Assembly (NCBI GenBank): GCA_016186915.1
Contig: JACPKU010000006.1
Coordinates: 313,619-350,085, forward strand
Direction: 5' to 3'
DNA from: Candidatus Doudnabacteria bacterium
GTDB taxonomy: Bacteria; Patescibacteriota; Doudnabacteria; UBA920; O2-02-FULL-48-8
DNA: 36,467 nt
A program made the translations under genes and the position numbers. This document shows positions 4,586 to 34,746 of this stretch, piece after piece. Position 1 is the stretch's first letter, and each line of letters opens with the position of its first letter. The notes under the pieces are model-generated. The model saw nothing but the letters and a program-made list of their open reading frames with translations, made no database searches and was not told the origin of the DNA.

Positions 4586-4682
4586 CCCGTTTAGAAATTT
4601 AATTGCTAAGCTTGCTGTTAATTTGATATTTCCCGTTAGCCGGCGATTATTTAAAAAGCATCGTGGAAATTTCTAACGGGAT
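4585..4682. repeat. MITE-like element with CCCGTTAGAAAT / ATTTCTAACGGG terminal inverted repeats (copy 1)
   Basis: cccgtttagaaattt...aaatttctaacggg; related copies at 16814 and 34681. Confidence 0.65.
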
Positions 4683-7227: not shown

Positions 7228-7770
7228 ATGAAAACGCTGCACTATCGGCGACACTCGCTGAAGGACGGGAACTACATCAGCGCCGAAGGACTTCGTCTGG
7301 CGTTCCGCGAAGGGGCCCTCTGCGGCGTGATTCACCACAAGGTCTTTCACGGGCCGCTGGTCCGTACCGCCCAGACGCTCCTCTCGTTCCTGCAGGGAAG
7401 GACCGGCAACTCGATGATCATGCCGATCATCGAGGAGATCGGCAATGACACGATCGTTGCGGCCATGGTCAACGACGCGTTCAAGGCCGCGGTGAAGGAA
7501 GGCCTTCCGAACATCGAGTGCCTCCGCAGAGCGCATGACAACGACAAGCTTGCCCAGTTTGCGGCCAGCGCGTTGCATGCCGTTGTGAAGATGTTTGATC
7601 GGATGAACGAGGGGGACATTGCTGTCGCTTTCGGCCACAGTCCGATCATCACCCCGCCCGAAGGGTGGGACAAGCTCGGTGAGCTGGATGGCCTGGTATT
7701 TGTCCAGGACGCAGCCCGCATCCGCGTCACCCAGGTCATCCGCGCCCAGCGCGACACCGTTCCGGCGTAG
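7228..7770 (+). CDS. Histidine phosphatase superfamily protein (putative), GC-rich
   Basis: N-term RRHS, internal FHGPLVRTAQTL, late GHSPII; strong SD TAGGAGGGCTCA. Confidence 0.65.
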   Translation: MKTLHYRRHSLKDGNYISAEGLRLAFREGALCGVIHHKVFHGPLVRTAQTLLSFLQGRTGNSMIMPIIEEIGNDTIVAAMVNDAFKAAVKEGLPNIECLRRAHDNDKLAQFAASALHAVVKMFDRMNEGDIAVAFGHSPIITPPEGWDKLGELDGLVFVQDAARIRVTQVIRAQRDTVPA

Positions 7771-12024: not shown

Positions 12025-12040
12025 AAAAAATACACCTTCT

Positions 12041-12207
12041 TTCATCCCGACTATACGGTCGGCCCTGGAATTACACCAGATCATGCCACTGACTAGGTGG
12101 CTCGTGGGCTAAACCCTCTCTCGGCCTTCGGCCACTCTCTCCCAAGGAGAGAGAGATAAAAAGAAAGGGTCATTACCACCGATTGCCGAATCACACGGCA
12201 CCCTGAA
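12041..12207 (-). ncRNA. FMN riboswitch (RFN element)
   Basis: Minus strand: TCAGGGTGCCGTGTGATTCGGCAATCGGTGGTAATGACCC...TTTAGCCCACGAGCCACCTAGTCAGTGGCATGATCTGGTGTAATTCCAGGGCCGACCGTATAGTCGGGATGAAAG; matches RFN conserved blocks, including the diagnostic 3' half. Confidence 0.88.
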
Positions 12208-12212
12208 AATGT

Positions 12213-12653
12213 TTAATTACTTGGATTATAACTGGAGAAAAACTGTCTGGCAAACAGCTCATCCTGTTTCATCTGCTCGATCAATTCGTCCGCAGAATCA
12301 AATTTTTCGTTCTCTCGAATCTTTTTGATGAGTTCCACCCCTAACTCTTTCCCGTAAATGTCATATGTAAAATCCAGGATATACACTTCTACTTTTCTCT
12401 CCTGCTCATCAAAAGTCTTCGCGCTACCGATAAAGATTAAGGCAGGCAAATATTTTTGTTCCGGCATGATCGCTTTCCTCGGCCACAACTTGCGGACAAA
12501 CAATGGCGGCAGACCATTTTCTATGTGCGTGACTAAGCCTACATAAACACCTTCTTCGGCGTGGGTTTCCGCATCCAAATTCGCGGTCGGGAATCCTAAC
12601 TGCTTGCCTCGTCCCAAATGTTTTTTCACTTTACCGGAGATTATTGTTGCCAT
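12213..12653 (-). CDS. Riboflavin kinase (stand-alone RFK domain)
   Basis: MATIISGKVKKHLGRGKQLGFPTANLDAETHAEEGVYVG...KVEVYILDFTYDIYGKELGVELIKKIRENEKF. Confidence 0.9.
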   Translation of the reverse strand: MATIISGKVKKHLGRGKQLGFPTANLDAETHAEEGVYVGLVTHIENGLPPLFVRKLWPRKAIMPEQKYLPALIFIGSAKTFDEQERKVEVYILDFTYDIYGKELGVELIKKIRENEKFDSADELIEQMKQDELFARQFFSSYNPSN

Positions 12654-14028: not shown

Positions 14029-14328
14029 CGATTCCCTCCTCTCGCTGCGAGACGTAGTGGACCGGAATTTCAGGTGGGCAGGTTTTACACGTTTGTAATT
14101 TGTGTTGATCTGTCCCACCTCCTTGAAAAAAGCCAGCGAGTTTGAAACACATCACCTTTCACCTTCTCCTTCTGAAATCCTCCATGTAATTGTTACGGTC
14201 CCCTCAAACCTACGCCCCAGAAAATCAATATATTGCTTTTCTAAGGCTTAGGCTTGATTTGAGTACCAATCCCGACGTTTCAGTCGGGATTCCGACTTCG
14301 ACACAGTCGAACGTCAGAACAAAAATCC

Positions 14329-14548
14329 GGCTCTTTTGGCCGGTTCATCGCTTTTCCTATTTAAACTTGCATGTTTAATGCTTCATTCTCTTAAGCGCTG
14401 AACCGGCTGCACTTGGGTTGGGACAAAATTAACCTTATCCAAGGCCTTGGTGGCAATGGAATTAGTGCGGGTAATTTGGTTCAGCTGTCGGTAATTCATA
14501 ATTATTGCTATCCATTGACAGTTTAAGCCAAAATAAAAATGCCGTCAA
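14329..14548 (-). promoter_or_regulatory. Attenuator-like leader L1
   Basis: Promoter TTGACG-17-TAAACT; leader ORF 14383-14499; segment 14395-14407 (GCCGGTTCAGCGC) complementary to 14338-14351 (GCGATGAACCGGCC); terminator CCGGCCAAAAGAGCCGGATTTTTG. Confidence 0.6.
14383..14499 (-). CDS. Candidate leader peptide L1 (38 aa)
   Basis: MNYRQLNQITRTNSIATKALDKVNFVPTQVQPVQRLRE. Confidence 0.4.
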   Translation of the reverse strand: MNYRQLNQITRTNSIATKALDKVNFVPTQVQPVQRLRE

Positions 14549-14642: not shown

Positions 14643-14676
14643 AAAAAAGGAGGGTCGAGCTGTGCTCGACCCTCGA
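14643..14676 (-). terminator. Intrinsic terminator (GCACAGC apical loop type)
   Basis: GAGGGTCGAGCACAGCTCGACCCTCCTTTTTTG. Confidence 0.9.
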
Positions 14677-14691
14677 AATGGAGAGTCTCGA

Positions 14692-14868
14692 TTAGCCATC
14701 CTCTATAGACCTCAGTCGCGCTCGCGCGCGATGAAGCGGATTGACGACCAACCGATTCCACTCGGACGAAGTCCGTCCGTTCGGGGTAACTGCCTCGAGC
14801 CTTTCGATGAGTTCCTTAAGCTCATCGGCAGTTTTCGCCTGCTCCACCAATTGGGGGTATGCTTCCAT
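14692..14868 (-). CDS. Small hypothetical protein (58 aa), missed by ORF cutoff
   Basis: MEAYPQLVEQAKTADELKELIERLEAVTPNGRTSSEWNRLVVNPLHRARARLRSIEDG. Confidence 0.6.
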   Translation of the reverse strand: MEAYPQLVEQAKTADELKELIERLEAVTPNGRTSSEWNRLVVNPLHRARARLRSIEDG

Positions 14869-14877
14869 GGCTACCCC

Positions 14878-15144
14878 CTACACTCCGTGGCCGTAGCCAG
14901 CCTCAACGAGATCGGACCCGCGATGCTCGAACTGAACCGCTGGCTGCGCCGGCGCCGGCTTCTTGCTGCGGCAGAGCTCGGCTTCGGCAACAGCCAGTTT
15001 CTGGACCACTTGGTGAAGCGCGTCACCGCAGTCCACGATTTGCCGAACGCTGCCGCCATTGCGGACATGACCCACAAGAGTCGTGGCAAGCCCCGCGATC
15101 TCGCGCTTCGTCTGTTCCACCTCTTCCCGAAGCCTCGTTTCCAT
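14878..15144 (-). CDS. Small hypothetical protein (88 aa), coiled-coil-like N-terminus
   Basis: SD GAGGAGG; METRLREEVEQTKREIAGLATTLVGHVRNGGSVRQIVDCGDALHQVVQKLAVAEAEL... Confidence 0.65.
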   Translation of the reverse strand: METRLREEVEQTKREIAGLATTLVGHVRNGGSVRQIVDCGDALHQVVQKLAVAEAELCRSKKPAPAQPAVQFEHRGSDLVEAGYGHGV

Positions 15145-15265: not shown

Positions 15266-15340
15266 AATGTTATATATTCGCAATTCGCAGCATTCGGATG
15301 TCTATTCGTAGATTCGAATCGCATGTTGCGAAGCAACAAA

Positions 15341-15602
15341 CAAAAATACCGGCCTTTTGCGAGCCGGTTGCTGTTACGTGATCCGTGTTATGTGATACGC
15401 GATCTATAACCAAAACCGACTCTTTGAGGCAAGAGCAACAACAAGCCCAAAATAATTAAAAGTCGGATTTGATTAGCCATGTGTTTAGTCTGGCCCTTCA
15501 GCTTTATTCTCCCCCGCTTGCGGGGGAGATGTCCCGCTAAACGGGGCAGAGAGGGCTTTCACTGATTGAAATCAGGTTATCAAAGAGTTTGCTTATTGTC
15601 AA
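15341..15602 (-). promoter_or_regulatory. Attenuator-like leader L2
   Basis: Promoter TTGACA-17-TAACCT; Leu-rich leader ORF; GAGTCGGTT (15414-15422) complementary to AACCGGCTC (15361-15369); terminator ACCGGCTCGCAAAAGGCCGGTATTTTTG. Confidence 0.65.
15388..15480 (-). CDS. Candidate leader peptide L2 (30 aa, Leu run)
   Basis: MANQIRLLIILGLLLLLPQRVGFGYRSRIT; five TTG codons. Confidence 0.45.
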   Translation of the reverse strand: MANQIRLLIILGLLLLLPQRVGFGYRSRIT

Positions 15603-16079: not shown

Positions 16080-16241
16080 CAAAAAACCGGCCTTAAGCCG
16101 GCTTGTGCTACGTGATCTGTGTTACGTGATACGTGACAAAGGCCGACTTTACGGACGGATCATAATGCTAATAATAGAGATAATATTATGTGATCGGTTC
16201 ATACTTGAAACCAGTTTATCACTGGATTTAGTTTAAGTCAA
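16080..16241 (-). promoter_or_regulatory. Attenuator-like leader L3
   Basis: Promoter TTGACT-17-TAAACT; AAGTCGGC (16142-16149) complementary to GCCGGCTT (16095-16102); terminator AAGCCGGCTTAAGGCCGGTTTTTTG. Confidence 0.6.
16149..16202 (-). CDS. Candidate leader peptide L3 (17 aa, Ile-rich)
   Basis: MNRSHNIISIISIMIRP starting near the predicted TSS. Confidence 0.3.
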   Translation of the reverse strand: MNRSHNIISIISIMIRP

Positions 16242-16616: not shown

Positions 16617-16754
16617 ATAACCTCTCGACTCGTCGCCCTTCGGGCGAACTTCGCTCGAGATAATTTTGCGTAAGCAAAATTAAAATCCGACCATGCCGGT
16701 CGGTTAGTTTTGTTTGTCTGCCTTCGACAAGCTCAGGCATCAATACAGCAAAAC

Positions 16755-16856
16755 TTACCGACCTCTGTATCGGAAAAAATAAAACCAAAACTGATTAGTA
16801 ATAGATGAATTCACCCCGTTAGAAATACTGTAATATGGCAAATTGTTTGCTGTCAT
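16755..16856 (-). CDS. Candidate leader peptide L4 (33 aa, aromatic run)
   Basis: MTANNLPYYSISNGVNSSITNQFWFYFFRYRGR; stop overlaps the anti-terminator strand. Confidence 0.4.
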   Translation of the reverse strand: MTANNLPYYSISNGVNSSITNQFWFYFFRYRGR

Positions 16857-16913
16857 TTAATATAAATTCGTTTAAGAACTCCGTAAAATTTGATTATTAA
16901 TTTCTAACGGGGT
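16814..16913. repeat. MITE-like element with CCCGTTAGAAAT TIRs (copy 2)
   Basis: ccccgttagaaat...atttctaacgggg. Confidence 0.75.
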
Positions 16914-19181: not shown

Positions 19182-19268
19182 GCCGCGGTGGCGGAACTGG
19201 CAGACGCACACGACTCAAAATCGTGCGGGAGCAATCCCATGAGAGTTCGATTCTCTCCCGCGGCACCA
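19182..19268 (+). tRNA. tRNA-Leu(CAA), complete, CCA encoded (unit C)
   Basis: GCCGCGG TG GCG GAACTGGCAGA CGC A CACGA CTCAAAA TCGTG cgggagcaatcccat GAGAG TTCGATT CTCTC CCGCGGC ACCA. Confidence 0.97.
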
Positions 19269-23626: not shown

Positions 23627-26554
23627 TTACTTCACCACAAAATTAATCAGTTTATCCTGCACAAAAATTTCCTTAATAATTTCTTTGTCCGTTAAATACT
23701 TTTTGACATTTTCGTCTGCCAGGGCCTTTTGTTTAACGTCTTCCTGCGAGCTTCCGGCATCCATTTCCAAAGTCGCCCGGACCCTGCCGGAGATTTGCAC
23801 TACGAAGATCACCTTCGTATCTTGGGCGAACTTTTCATCATATTTGGGCCAAGCTTCTTTATGTATTGATCCCTCATGGCCCAAGCCGTGCCAAAGTTCT
23901 TCTGTGATGTGCGGAGCCAAAGGAGCTAAAAGTTTCAGAAAATCCTCCCAGCTTAACTTACTAATGTTGGTTTTTTGACGCTCGAAGGCGTTAAGTAAAA
24001 TCATCAAGGCGCTAATTGCCGTGTTAAAGCGATAGTTCTCAATATCACTGGTCACCTTTTTGATCGTTTTATTTAAAACTTGCAGCACTTCCTGGCTGCT
24101 TTCCTCGACTTGATGCTCCACTAAAACTTGTCCCAAGTTCCAAGTTTTATCCAAAAATCTTTTCACCCCCATAATTCCTTTATCGTTCCAGCTCACGGTA
24201 TCCGCATGGGGGCCTAAAAACATTTCGTACATCCGCAGCACATCTGCGCCGAATTTTTCTACAATCTCGTCAGGGTTGACTACATTGCCCCGGCTCTTAC
24301 TCATTTTCTCGCCGTCGGCAGCCAAGACAATGCCGTGCGGCACGCGCTTCATATAAGGTTCTTGCGCGGTGACGACTTTTTGGTCATACAAAAACAAATT
24401 CCAGAAACGGGAATACAGCAAATGCAGCGTGGTATGTTCCATGCCGCCAAAATACACATCCACTGGCGTCCAGCGCTTGAGTAATTTTTTACTGGCTAAT
24501 TCCTTGCCGTTTTGTGGATCCGTATATCTTAACCAATACCAAGAACTGCCTGCCCACTGCGGCATGGTGTTGGTTTCTCTTTTCGCCGGCCCTTCACATT
24601 CAGGGCATTTCACATTCACCCATTCTTTAATCGCGGCCAAAGGGGACTCCCCTGTGCCGGTGGGTTCATACCTTTCTACTTCTGGCAAGGTCACGGGCAA
24701 ATCTTTTTCAGGCACTGCCACCACGCCGCAGTTTTCGCAATGAATAATTGGGATTGGCTCACCCCAATATCGCTGGCGTGAAAACACCCAATCGCGGAGT
24801 TTATATTGCACTTTAGGGACCCCAAACTCTTTTGCCATCTTCGGAATCGCTTCTTCCGAGGTCATACCATTATACTCGCCAGAGTCAACCAATTTTCCGT
24901 TTCCTACAAAAGGCAATTCTCCACCTTTGACGACTTCTCTAATCGGCAAATTGTATTTTTTCGCAAACTCGAAATCGCGCTCGTCATGCGCCGGCACGGC
25001 CATGATCGCACCGGTCCCGTAGCCCATGAGCGCATAATCAGCCACCCAAACCGGAATTTCTTCTTTGGTTGCAGGATTGATCGCTTTGACACCTTTCAGC
25101 TCTACACCCGTCTTTTCTCTGTTAACTGCTGTTCGAGTTATCTCGTCTTTTTTCTTAACCTCTTCTAAATACTTCGCGATGTCAGAAAAATTCTCGGAAA
25201 TAGACATCCGGCTTTGCACCAAAGGATGCTCTGGGGCTATGACCATATAAGTAGCGCCAAAAATCGTATCCGGTCGGGTTGTAAAAATTTTCATATACGG
25301 CAAGAGTGTCTCAAGAATTGCAGGCTCTTCTTTTCCTTGAAAGTGTGGCTTGAGCGCCTGAACAGTTTGCGGATAGGAATCTAGATTTTTACCCAAAACC
25401 TTACCATCTTCCATTGGAACCACTGTATCAGAAGAATCTACCAAAATTTTAAAATAATCGGAGTTTTGCCGAATTTTTTTATAATCGAATCCTCGACGTA
25501 CTGCTTCACTAACCGTTGGTCGAGCTTTTTTATCCAAAAATTTACCCGTTGTGGGGGTCGACACCAAGACCACGCCATGAACCTTATGACCTCTTTCTAA
25601 AAGCCTCAATGCTACAATCCCTCCAAATGAATGGCTAACGACAACCGTACTTTCATCTAATTTACAATTTTTTTCTACAAAATCAGTTTGCTCCAAGTCA
25701 TTCGGTTCACCTGGATTGGGCATTTCCGGTATCTCAACCTCGAAACCTCGATCTTCCAATTCCTTCTTTAACCAAGGATAAGAGTTATCTTTGGGCTTAC
25801 TTGCACGACCGTGCAAAATCACATACCGCTTGACCCTAGGATTTGCTATGGGAAATTCTATCTCCGCTCCCTCGCTCCTACCGATCCAGTTCTCCTGCTG
25901 GAGTTTAACTGCTTCCGGCCACTCGGTTAGGTCTTTTAAACCAGCAAGAAGTTTTTCAGCGTACGCCGTGATTTTCAGATACCACTGGCGCATTTCTTTT
26001 TTCTCAACTTTCGTACCACAACGCTCACAGCAACCGTCTATTACTTCTTCATTGGCCAGACCGGTTTTATCCTTGGGACACCAATTAATCAGCCCTGTTG
26101 CTTCATATGCCAAGCCGGCTTTGAAAAACTGCAGGAATATCCACTGGGTCCATTTGTAATACTCTGGATCTGTGGTGTTGATCTCCCTGCTCCAATCAAA
26201 ACTCATGCCCCAGCTTTGCAGCTGCTTTTTCGCATTCTCGATATTTTTTACCGTGGAAATTTTCGGATGCACGCCTTTTTTCAAGGCAAAGTTTTCAGCA
26301 GGCAAGCCAAAAGCATCCCAGCCAATTGGGTATAACACTTCATGCTCCTGCATTCGATAAAAACGCGAATACACATCACCGGCTGTGTAGGGCCGCAGAT
26401 GTCCCATATGCAAACCTTCCCCGGAAGGATAAGGAAATTCAATCAGGACATACTTTTTGTCCTTCTTACTTGTATCCGAAGCTTTATAAACTTCGTCTTT
26501 TTCCCATTTGTCCTGCCATTTTTTCTCTATTGCTTTGTGGTCGTATTTGGTCAT
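23627..26554 (-). CDS. leuS: Leucyl-tRNA synthetase with inserted alpha/beta-hydrolase domain
   Basis: HMGHLRPYTAGD, KMSKSRGN, FTTRPDTIFGATYMVIAPEHPL; inserted RBBP9-like domain at residues about 238-418. Confidence 0.97.
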   Translation of the reverse strand: MTKYDHKAIEKKWQDKWEKDEVYKASDTSKKDKKYVLIEFPYPSGEGLHMGHLRPYTAGDVYSRFYRMQEHEVLYPIGWDAFGLPAENFALKKGVHPKISTVKNIENAKKQLQSWGMSFDWSREINTTDPEYYKWTQWIFLQFFKAGLAYEATGLINWCPKDKTGLANEEVIDGCCERCGTKVEKKEMRQWYLKITAYAEKLLAGLKDLTEWPEAVKLQQENWIGRSEGAEIEFPIANPRVKRYVILHGRASKPKDNSYPWLKKELEDRGFEVEIPEMPNPGEPNDLEQTDFVEKNCKLDESTVVVSHSFGGIVALRLLERGHKVHGVVLVSTPTTGKFLDKKARPTVSEAVRRGFDYKKIRQNSDYFKILVDSSDTVVPMEDGKVLGKNLDSYPQTVQALKPHFQGKEEPAILETLLPYMKIFTTRPDTIFGATYMVIAPEHPLVQSRMSISENFSDIAKYLEEVKKKDEITRTAVNREKTGVELKGVKAINPATKEEIPVWVADYALMGYGTGAIMAVPAHDERDFEFAKKYNLPIREVVKGGELPFVGNGKLVDSGEYNGMTSEEAIPKMAKEFGVPKVQYKLRDWVFSRQRYWGEPIPIIHCENCGVVAVPEKDLPVTLPEVERYEPTGTGESPLAAIKEWVNVKCPECEGPAKRETNTMPQWAGSSWYWLRYTDPQNGKELASKKLLKRWTPVDVYFGGMEHTTLHLLYSRFWNLFLYDQKVVTAQEPYMKRVPHGIVLAADGEKMSKSRGNVVNPDEIVEKFGADVLRMYEMFLGPHADTVSWNDKGIMGVKRFLDKTWNLGQVLVEHQVEESSQEVLQVLNKTIKKVTSDIENYRFNTAISALMILLNAFERQKTNISKLSWEDFLKLLAPLAPHITEELWHGLGHEGSIHKEAWPKYDEKFAQDTKVIFVVQISGRVRATLEMDAGSSQEDVKQKALADENVKKYLTDKEIIKEIFVQDKLINFVVK

Positions 26555-34680: not shown

Positions 34681-34746
34681 ATCCCGTTAGAAATCCGAAG
34701 TCACAACTTCGGCGGATGTCCAAGGGCATCCTATTTCTAACGGGAT
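34681..34746. repeat. MITE-like element with CCCGTTAGAAAT TIRs (copy 3)
   Basis: ATCCCGTTAGAAAT...ATTTCTAACGGGAT. Confidence 0.8.

Follow-up and report, generated by a model that had tools for sequence, protein, structure and literature searches.

The stretch of DNA analysed here (36,467 nt, hereafter the window) carries on its minus strand a mini-ORF crowded with leucine codons, followed by an intrinsic terminator and then by small genes. What such an ORF does at this place is the question raised by the locus; an earlier note on the same DNA took it for leader-peptide attenuation of the leu/ilv type. Most Patescibacteria-like (CPR) bacteria cannot be grown, and regulation in these lineages is, to our knowledge, nearly unknown. 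Judging from the sequence and from folding models, positions 15388–15480 quite probably represent the sensor of a ribosome-mediated transcription attenuator answering the shortage of leucine or, more broadly, of branched-chain amino acids.

The ORF (15388–15480, minus) runs from the ATG at 15480 to a TAA and encodes a peptide of 30 aa, MANQIRLLIILGLLLLLPQRVGFGYRSRIT. Its codons 7–17 (CTT TTA ATT ATT TTG GGC TTG TTG TTG CTC TTG) hold eight Leu, five of them TTG, in agreement with the earlier note, which had reported eight Leu codons within twelve, five of them TTG, and gave no strand. When the 471-nt leader region was shuffled 5000 times with its dinucleotides preserved, a 12-codon segment with at least eight Leu arose in one shuffle; across all six reading frames, the whole window has such segments at three places. 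The preponderance of TTG (five of the eight Leu codons) is not special, because TTG is the commonest Leu codon here (190 of 593 in 15 genes). The tie between the TTG run and tRNA-Leu(CAA), suggested earlier, was therefore rejected, the more so as the tRNA gene (19182–19268) is located 3.7 kb away on the plus strand. Another leucine-related gene of the window, that of leucyl-tRNA synthetase (23627–26554, minus), encodes an enzyme whose residues 245–393, ahead of the editing domain, form an inserted alpha/beta (serine) hydrolase-like domain.

The mini-ORF belongs to a compact transcription unit (unit D, minus strand throughout). Its promoter, as read from the sequence (15574–15602), comprises TTGACA (15602–15597), a 17-nt spacer, and TAACCT (15579–15574), a weak -10 element with three of six matches; the promoters of the sister units described below read TTGACN-17-TANNNT. 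A dispersed hairpin repeat, with an 80% identical copy at G000:C3:11586-11641, is inserted at 15497–15556 and extends the 5' UTR to approximately 90 nt. Strand 1 (AATCAAATCCGACTTTT, 15458–15474), located with the MFE fold, overlaps Leu codons 7–8 and is a partner of strand 2 (CAAAGAGTCGGTTTTGGTTAT, 15406–15426), the 5' strand of the antiterminator, which lies directly 3' of the Leu run and was delineated by the MFE fold, the terminator scan, and ribosome-position folding. Strand 3 (GTAACAGCAACCGGCTC, 15361–15377; terminator scan and partner-swap test) can pair either with strand 2 or with strand 4, the 3:4 pairing being the intrinsic terminator ACCGGCTCGCAAAAGGCCGGT with its T tract ATTTTTG (15338–15368; terminator scan). 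Hence, the 1:2, 2:3, and 3:4 pairings are mutually exclusive. The anti-terminator strand which the earlier note had placed directly downstream of the Leu run is indeed there: GAGTCGGTT has the ORF start and the 5' arm of the terminator (AACCGGCTC) as alternative partners. With GAGTCGGTT paired to the ORF start, the whole leader reaches an MFE of -87.7 kcal/mol (z -4.9), and its pairing with the terminator arm ranks unit D second among 130 terminators scanned in ~320 kb of the same genome. The best upstream partner of strand 3 is GAGTCGGTTTTGGTTAT, and an equally good one was found in none of 20 shuffles. A short dispersed repeat of the tatcacgtaacacggatcacgta type occupies the loop between strands 2 and 3 in this unit (15402–15362), in another leader of the window (16136–16096), and in leaders of relatives (L090, L091), so insertions seem to be tolerated in this loop.

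The specificity of the antiterminator was assessed over 31 units by exchanging the partners. The summed dG of pairing between strand 2 and its own strand 3 was -603 kcal/mol vs. -421 ± 16.5 kcal/mol with swapped partners, and 0 of 20,000 permutations reached -603; because the units share ancestry through homology, they are no independent observations, and the statistics are descriptive. The 2:3 pairing is thus specific to each unit. Moreover, two units carry GGTTGG/CCAGCC in place of GGTCGG/CCGACC, i.e., they are changed on both sides of the helix.

The position of the switch was computed by folding the RNA downstream of the ribosome with each codon placed in the A site in turn, a thermodynamic procedure which ignores the kinetics of transcription and assumes the ribosome footprint. 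The predicted terminator probability of unit D is 1.00 without a ribosome, at most 0.11 for codons 3–16, 0.66 for L17, and at least 0.99 from P18 on. The predicted switch between antiterminator and terminator therefore falls at L17/P18, the end of the codon run: a stall within the run is predicted to free strand 2 and passage beyond it to cover this strand. An open stretch of this length with closed ends appeared in 2 of 300 shuffled leaders. Among 20 aromatic and branched-chain leaders, the five codons up to and including the switch, 100 in total, specified a residue of the respective class in 78 cases against 37.3 ± 6.9 at random positions, and 78 was reached in 0 of 20,000 draws, with the same reservation regarding the homology of the units.

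From these computed features, we infer translation of the Leu leader, stalling of the ribosome, a response to amino acids, and whatever role the small proteins may have. RNA polymerase would transcribe the leader, with a ribosome trailing it on the mini-ORF. If Leu-tRNA is ample, the ribosome would clear the Leu run and cover strand 2, the 3:4 hairpin would form, and transcription would end near 15340. If Leu-tRNA is short, the ribosome would stall in codons 7–17, leaving strand 2 free to pair with strand 3; no terminator would then form, and the small genes at 15144–14692 would be transcribed. If the mini-ORF is not translated, strand 1 would sequester strand 2, making termination the default. 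For the majority of sister units, free RNA was predicted to be antiterminated; therefore, the untranslated default is not uniform.

The genes which would be controlled in this way are orphans without a known tie to leucine. The first (14878–15144, minus) is preceded by the Shine–Dalgarno sequence GAGGAGG and encodes an 88-aa protein, METRLREE...GYGHGV, for which Pfam gave no match above cut-off and the homology search gave no match in 20 relatives. Its C-terminus is shared: GYGHGV is found in five genomes of the family, once in each and always in the array of units, and in all five the gene is preceded by a leader rich in branched-chain residues. The second gene (14692–14868, minus) encodes 58 aa (MEAYPQLVEQAK...), and a 55-aa version of its product lacking C-terminal residues had no Pfam match. 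The operon closes with a terminator, GAGGGTCGAGCACAGCTCGACCCTC plus a T tract (14650–14674, minus; terminator scan). In the arrays of the relatives, too, the controlled genes are mostly small orphans, e.g., Cys-rich, zinc-knuckle-like, coiled-coil-like, or charged, with no Pfam match above cut-off. Otherwise unrelated-looking proteins of the arrays (window 14878–15144; L090, L092, L093, L097) share short C-terminal motifs, which follow the class of the leader: GYGHGV with branched-chain leaders, [FR]Y[AP]G with Val-rich leaders, and a Trp-containing end with aromatic leaders.

The usual synthesis of branched-chain amino acids requires ketol-acid reductoisomerase, IlvC. None of the 49 genomes of the order was found to have this enzyme; the control search was positive in 14 of 14. 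Therefore, leucine would be sensed here by a cell that very likely must import it. As far as sequence and models allow, unit D would be best read as an attenuator by which an auxotrophic, CPR-like bacterium couples genes for orphan small proteins to the supply of leucine (branched-chain amino acids). A place among the Patescibacteria would fit the small genome and the named, though mixed, neighbours of ParB.

Unit D is not alone. Four tandem units of the same strand are located downstream of parB: A (aromatic), C (Ile), D (Leu), and E (Val-rich), each comprising a promoter, a mini-ORF, the competing strands 1:2/2:3/3:4, an intrinsic terminator, and then tiny orphan genes. The leader of unit A (MNSSITNQFWFYFFRYRGR, GTG start, 16755–16814, minus), supported by its sequence and by aromatic leaders in relatives, carries the run FWFYFF and is followed by a terminator at 16687–16703 (minus). 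Unit C (MNRSHNIISIISIMIRP, 16149–16202, minus; unit scan) reads NIISIISIMI and has its terminator at 16084–16104 (minus), and the Val-rich leader of unit E (MNYRQLNQITRTNSIATKALDKVNFVPTQVQPVQRLRE, 14383–14499, minus; unit scan and folding) precedes a terminator at 14327–14343 (minus); all three terminators came from the terminator scan. The start of unit A is broken by a dispersed inverted-repeat element, and reading resumes at the GTG at the end of this element. The motif MNPVRN/CCCGTTAGAAAT of unit A, tried as a leader peptide, was rejected, since it represents this same element landing at start codons. The element (CCCGTTAGAAAT...ATTTCTAACGGG, ~70–120 nt) is seen in the window at 16812–16913, near 4680, and at 34683–34744, and in many copies in relatives. 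Copies often follow immediately upon start codons, flanked on either side by the repeat ATGAA/TGAA, and the far end of the element can re-create a start codon.

Such units are found just downstream of parB in 11 genomes of the family, the present one included. An aromatic leader (FWFYF, FYFWF, or YWF) occurs in ten of them, directly after parB in nine and as the second unit, behind a lysine-type one, in the remaining genome (G011); the other units that follow in the arrays of the relatives carry Ile, Ile/Leu, Val-rich, or other runs. Leaders with FWFYF before small genes are also present in two other families of the order (f2 and f4 genomes). Elsewhere in the same genome, the unit scan returned only chance-like matches in 286 kb. 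Applied to 702 kb of ParB neighbourhoods from other bacteria, it gave 12 chance-like matches, none with a codon run, and no such arrays; this set was chosen by a wide contig scan with a ParB profile, which missed parB of the present family.

The Leu leader itself has an ortholog, MNSRPAINLLGLLLAITHRVGFGHR, in one other genome (G001, genus g2; L091 minus, 7633–7556); at the DNA level, the two are 75.5% identical over 49 nt. The runs of comparable units elsewhere consist of Ile or are mixed. The ortholog was found by blastn, the strict unit scan having missed it because its T tract is poor. It retains LLGLLL and RVGFG[Y/H]R, some of the codons being replaced by synonymous ones (TTG/CTG, GGC/GGT, AGA/AGG). 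Relative to unit D, its strands 1, 2, and 3 have changed in concert; the gene behind it encodes a different small protein. Hence, the Leu run is kept in a relative, as the earlier note had proposed to check, and the pattern of conserved hairpins with a non-conserved ORF was not seen. The leader-peptide mechanism of the earlier note thereby stands with computational support from the conserved-run ortholog, the paralogous Ile, Val, and aromatic leaders, the unit-specific 2:3 pairing, and the switch predicted where the run ends; its leu/ilv part does not, as no leu/ilv gene follows and the order lacks IlvC.

In the genome with the lysine-type unit, the leader nearest to parB reads MNLQISQFVSKKGRHLVG, with the predicted switch at Lys11–Lys12, and the gene after it encodes an aspartokinase, which belongs to the lysine pathway. 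The best-scoring family of this protein is the lysine-sensitive type, yet the score is below the cut-off of that model. The Lys–Lys switch together with the aspartokinase is the match between sensor and pathway expected of amino-acid attenuation. Separately, a leader with a Phe/Val run in another relative (L090 minus, at 7501; MNNQPAKFFQVILGVFRFGRLFKN) precedes a 351-aa protein with a distant likeness to type II GAPDH or diaminopimelate enzymes.

This match bears on the main rival explanation, according to which the leader peptide senses ribosome slowing in general, under antibiotics or other stress on translation (cf. the erm- and bmr-type leaders), and not leucine in particular. It would accommodate the controlled genes, which are not those of amino-acid enzymes, and the prediction that any stall in codons 3–16 opens the switch. 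Against it, the residue at the switch is class-specific and varies among the units at the same place (F/W/Y, Ile, Leu, Val, Lys), the lysine version stands before the aspartokinase gene, and the aromatic run is preserved through synonymous third-base changes. The latter account for every difference inside the motif among the six parB-near FWFYF leaders of the family, a set independent of the search for that motif. We therefore regard general slowing as improbable.

Even less likely is that a trans-factor or a ligand-bound RNA (a riboswitch, a T-box, or a protein-bound leader) drives the 2:3/3:4 switch, the ORF being incidental. The extra small hairpin inside the ORF of the Val-rich class would be in line with this explanation. 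At the same time, Rfam covariance models found no T-box or riboswitch in the array, which, within the reach of Rfam, rules out a T-box, and the matches in the window are an FMN element and the tRNA, both located elsewhere. Moreover, codon runs are conserved, and start codons lie 4–24 nt 3' of the -10 element in nearly all promoter-anchored units. The FMN riboswitch (12030–12214, minus) directly precedes a gene of an EamA-family transporter, suggesting that the latter is a flavin transporter. The small membrane peptide, offered in the earlier note as an alternative in which hydrophobicity is the point and the hairpins are a separate matter, is hardly credible: the maximum 15-residue hydropathy of the Leu leader is indeed 2.26, but its hydrophobic stretch of 11–13 residues is short for a membrane helix, the codon run coincides with the switch position, and sister leaders built alike are hydrophilic or no more than aromatic (down to -0.87).

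Returning to amino-acid attenuation, a broader picture can be suggested, which we hold somewhat more probable than not to be right. In an order without the usual branched-chain route, one family would keep beside parB a multi-channel sensor of amino-acid starvation, i.e., tandem attenuators with interchangeable runs (aromatic, Ile, Leu, Val, and once Lys) switching on fast-evolving small proteins with C-terminal motifs such as GYGHGV, so that attenuation would serve something other than amino-acid synthesis. A readable codon-level array of this kind would tell which amino acids such auxotrophs watch; it suggests that ribosome-mediated attenuation is not confined to operons for amino-acid synthesis, and it directs attention to small proteins with a possible role in times of failing amino-acid supply. 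Since the Leu and Ile leaders are versions of one design, the codon logic is testable by simple swaps. Our search of open-access journal papers found no publication joining these lineages with leader-peptide attenuation.

Among the known systems, the closest likeness is to leuL/ilvL of enterobacteria and the Leu-responsive ilv-leu attenuator of S. aureus (PMC5794164), which likewise combine a Leu or branched-chain mini-ORF, alternative hairpins, an intrinsic terminator, and predicted readthrough on stalling. In contrast to them, no biosynthesis operon lies downstream here and IlvC is missing from the order, the 5' UTRs of most units are very short, and four units with different residues stand in tandem. 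Unit D would thus be leuL/ilvL-like by mechanism, but it does not belong with the leu/ilv operon attenuators, which are defined by target genes that it lacks. Sister unit A resembles pheA/trp-type aromatic leaders and the leader peptides predicted in Actinobacteria (PMC1262725) in having its FWFYF run just before strand 1; unlike in those, Phe, Trp, and Tyr are mixed in one run and the controlled gene often encodes a small Cys-rich orphan protein. With antibiotic-responsive attenuators (erm and bmrCD leaders; PMC4191407), the units have in common a leader peptide, a stalled ribosome (here presumed), and an antiterminator, whereas what is conserved here is the residue class, varying between units, and not an arrest motif. 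Overall, the kind of switch is known; what appears to be new is the multi-residue array, its place at the side of parB, and its deployment by auxotrophs to control small orphan proteins.
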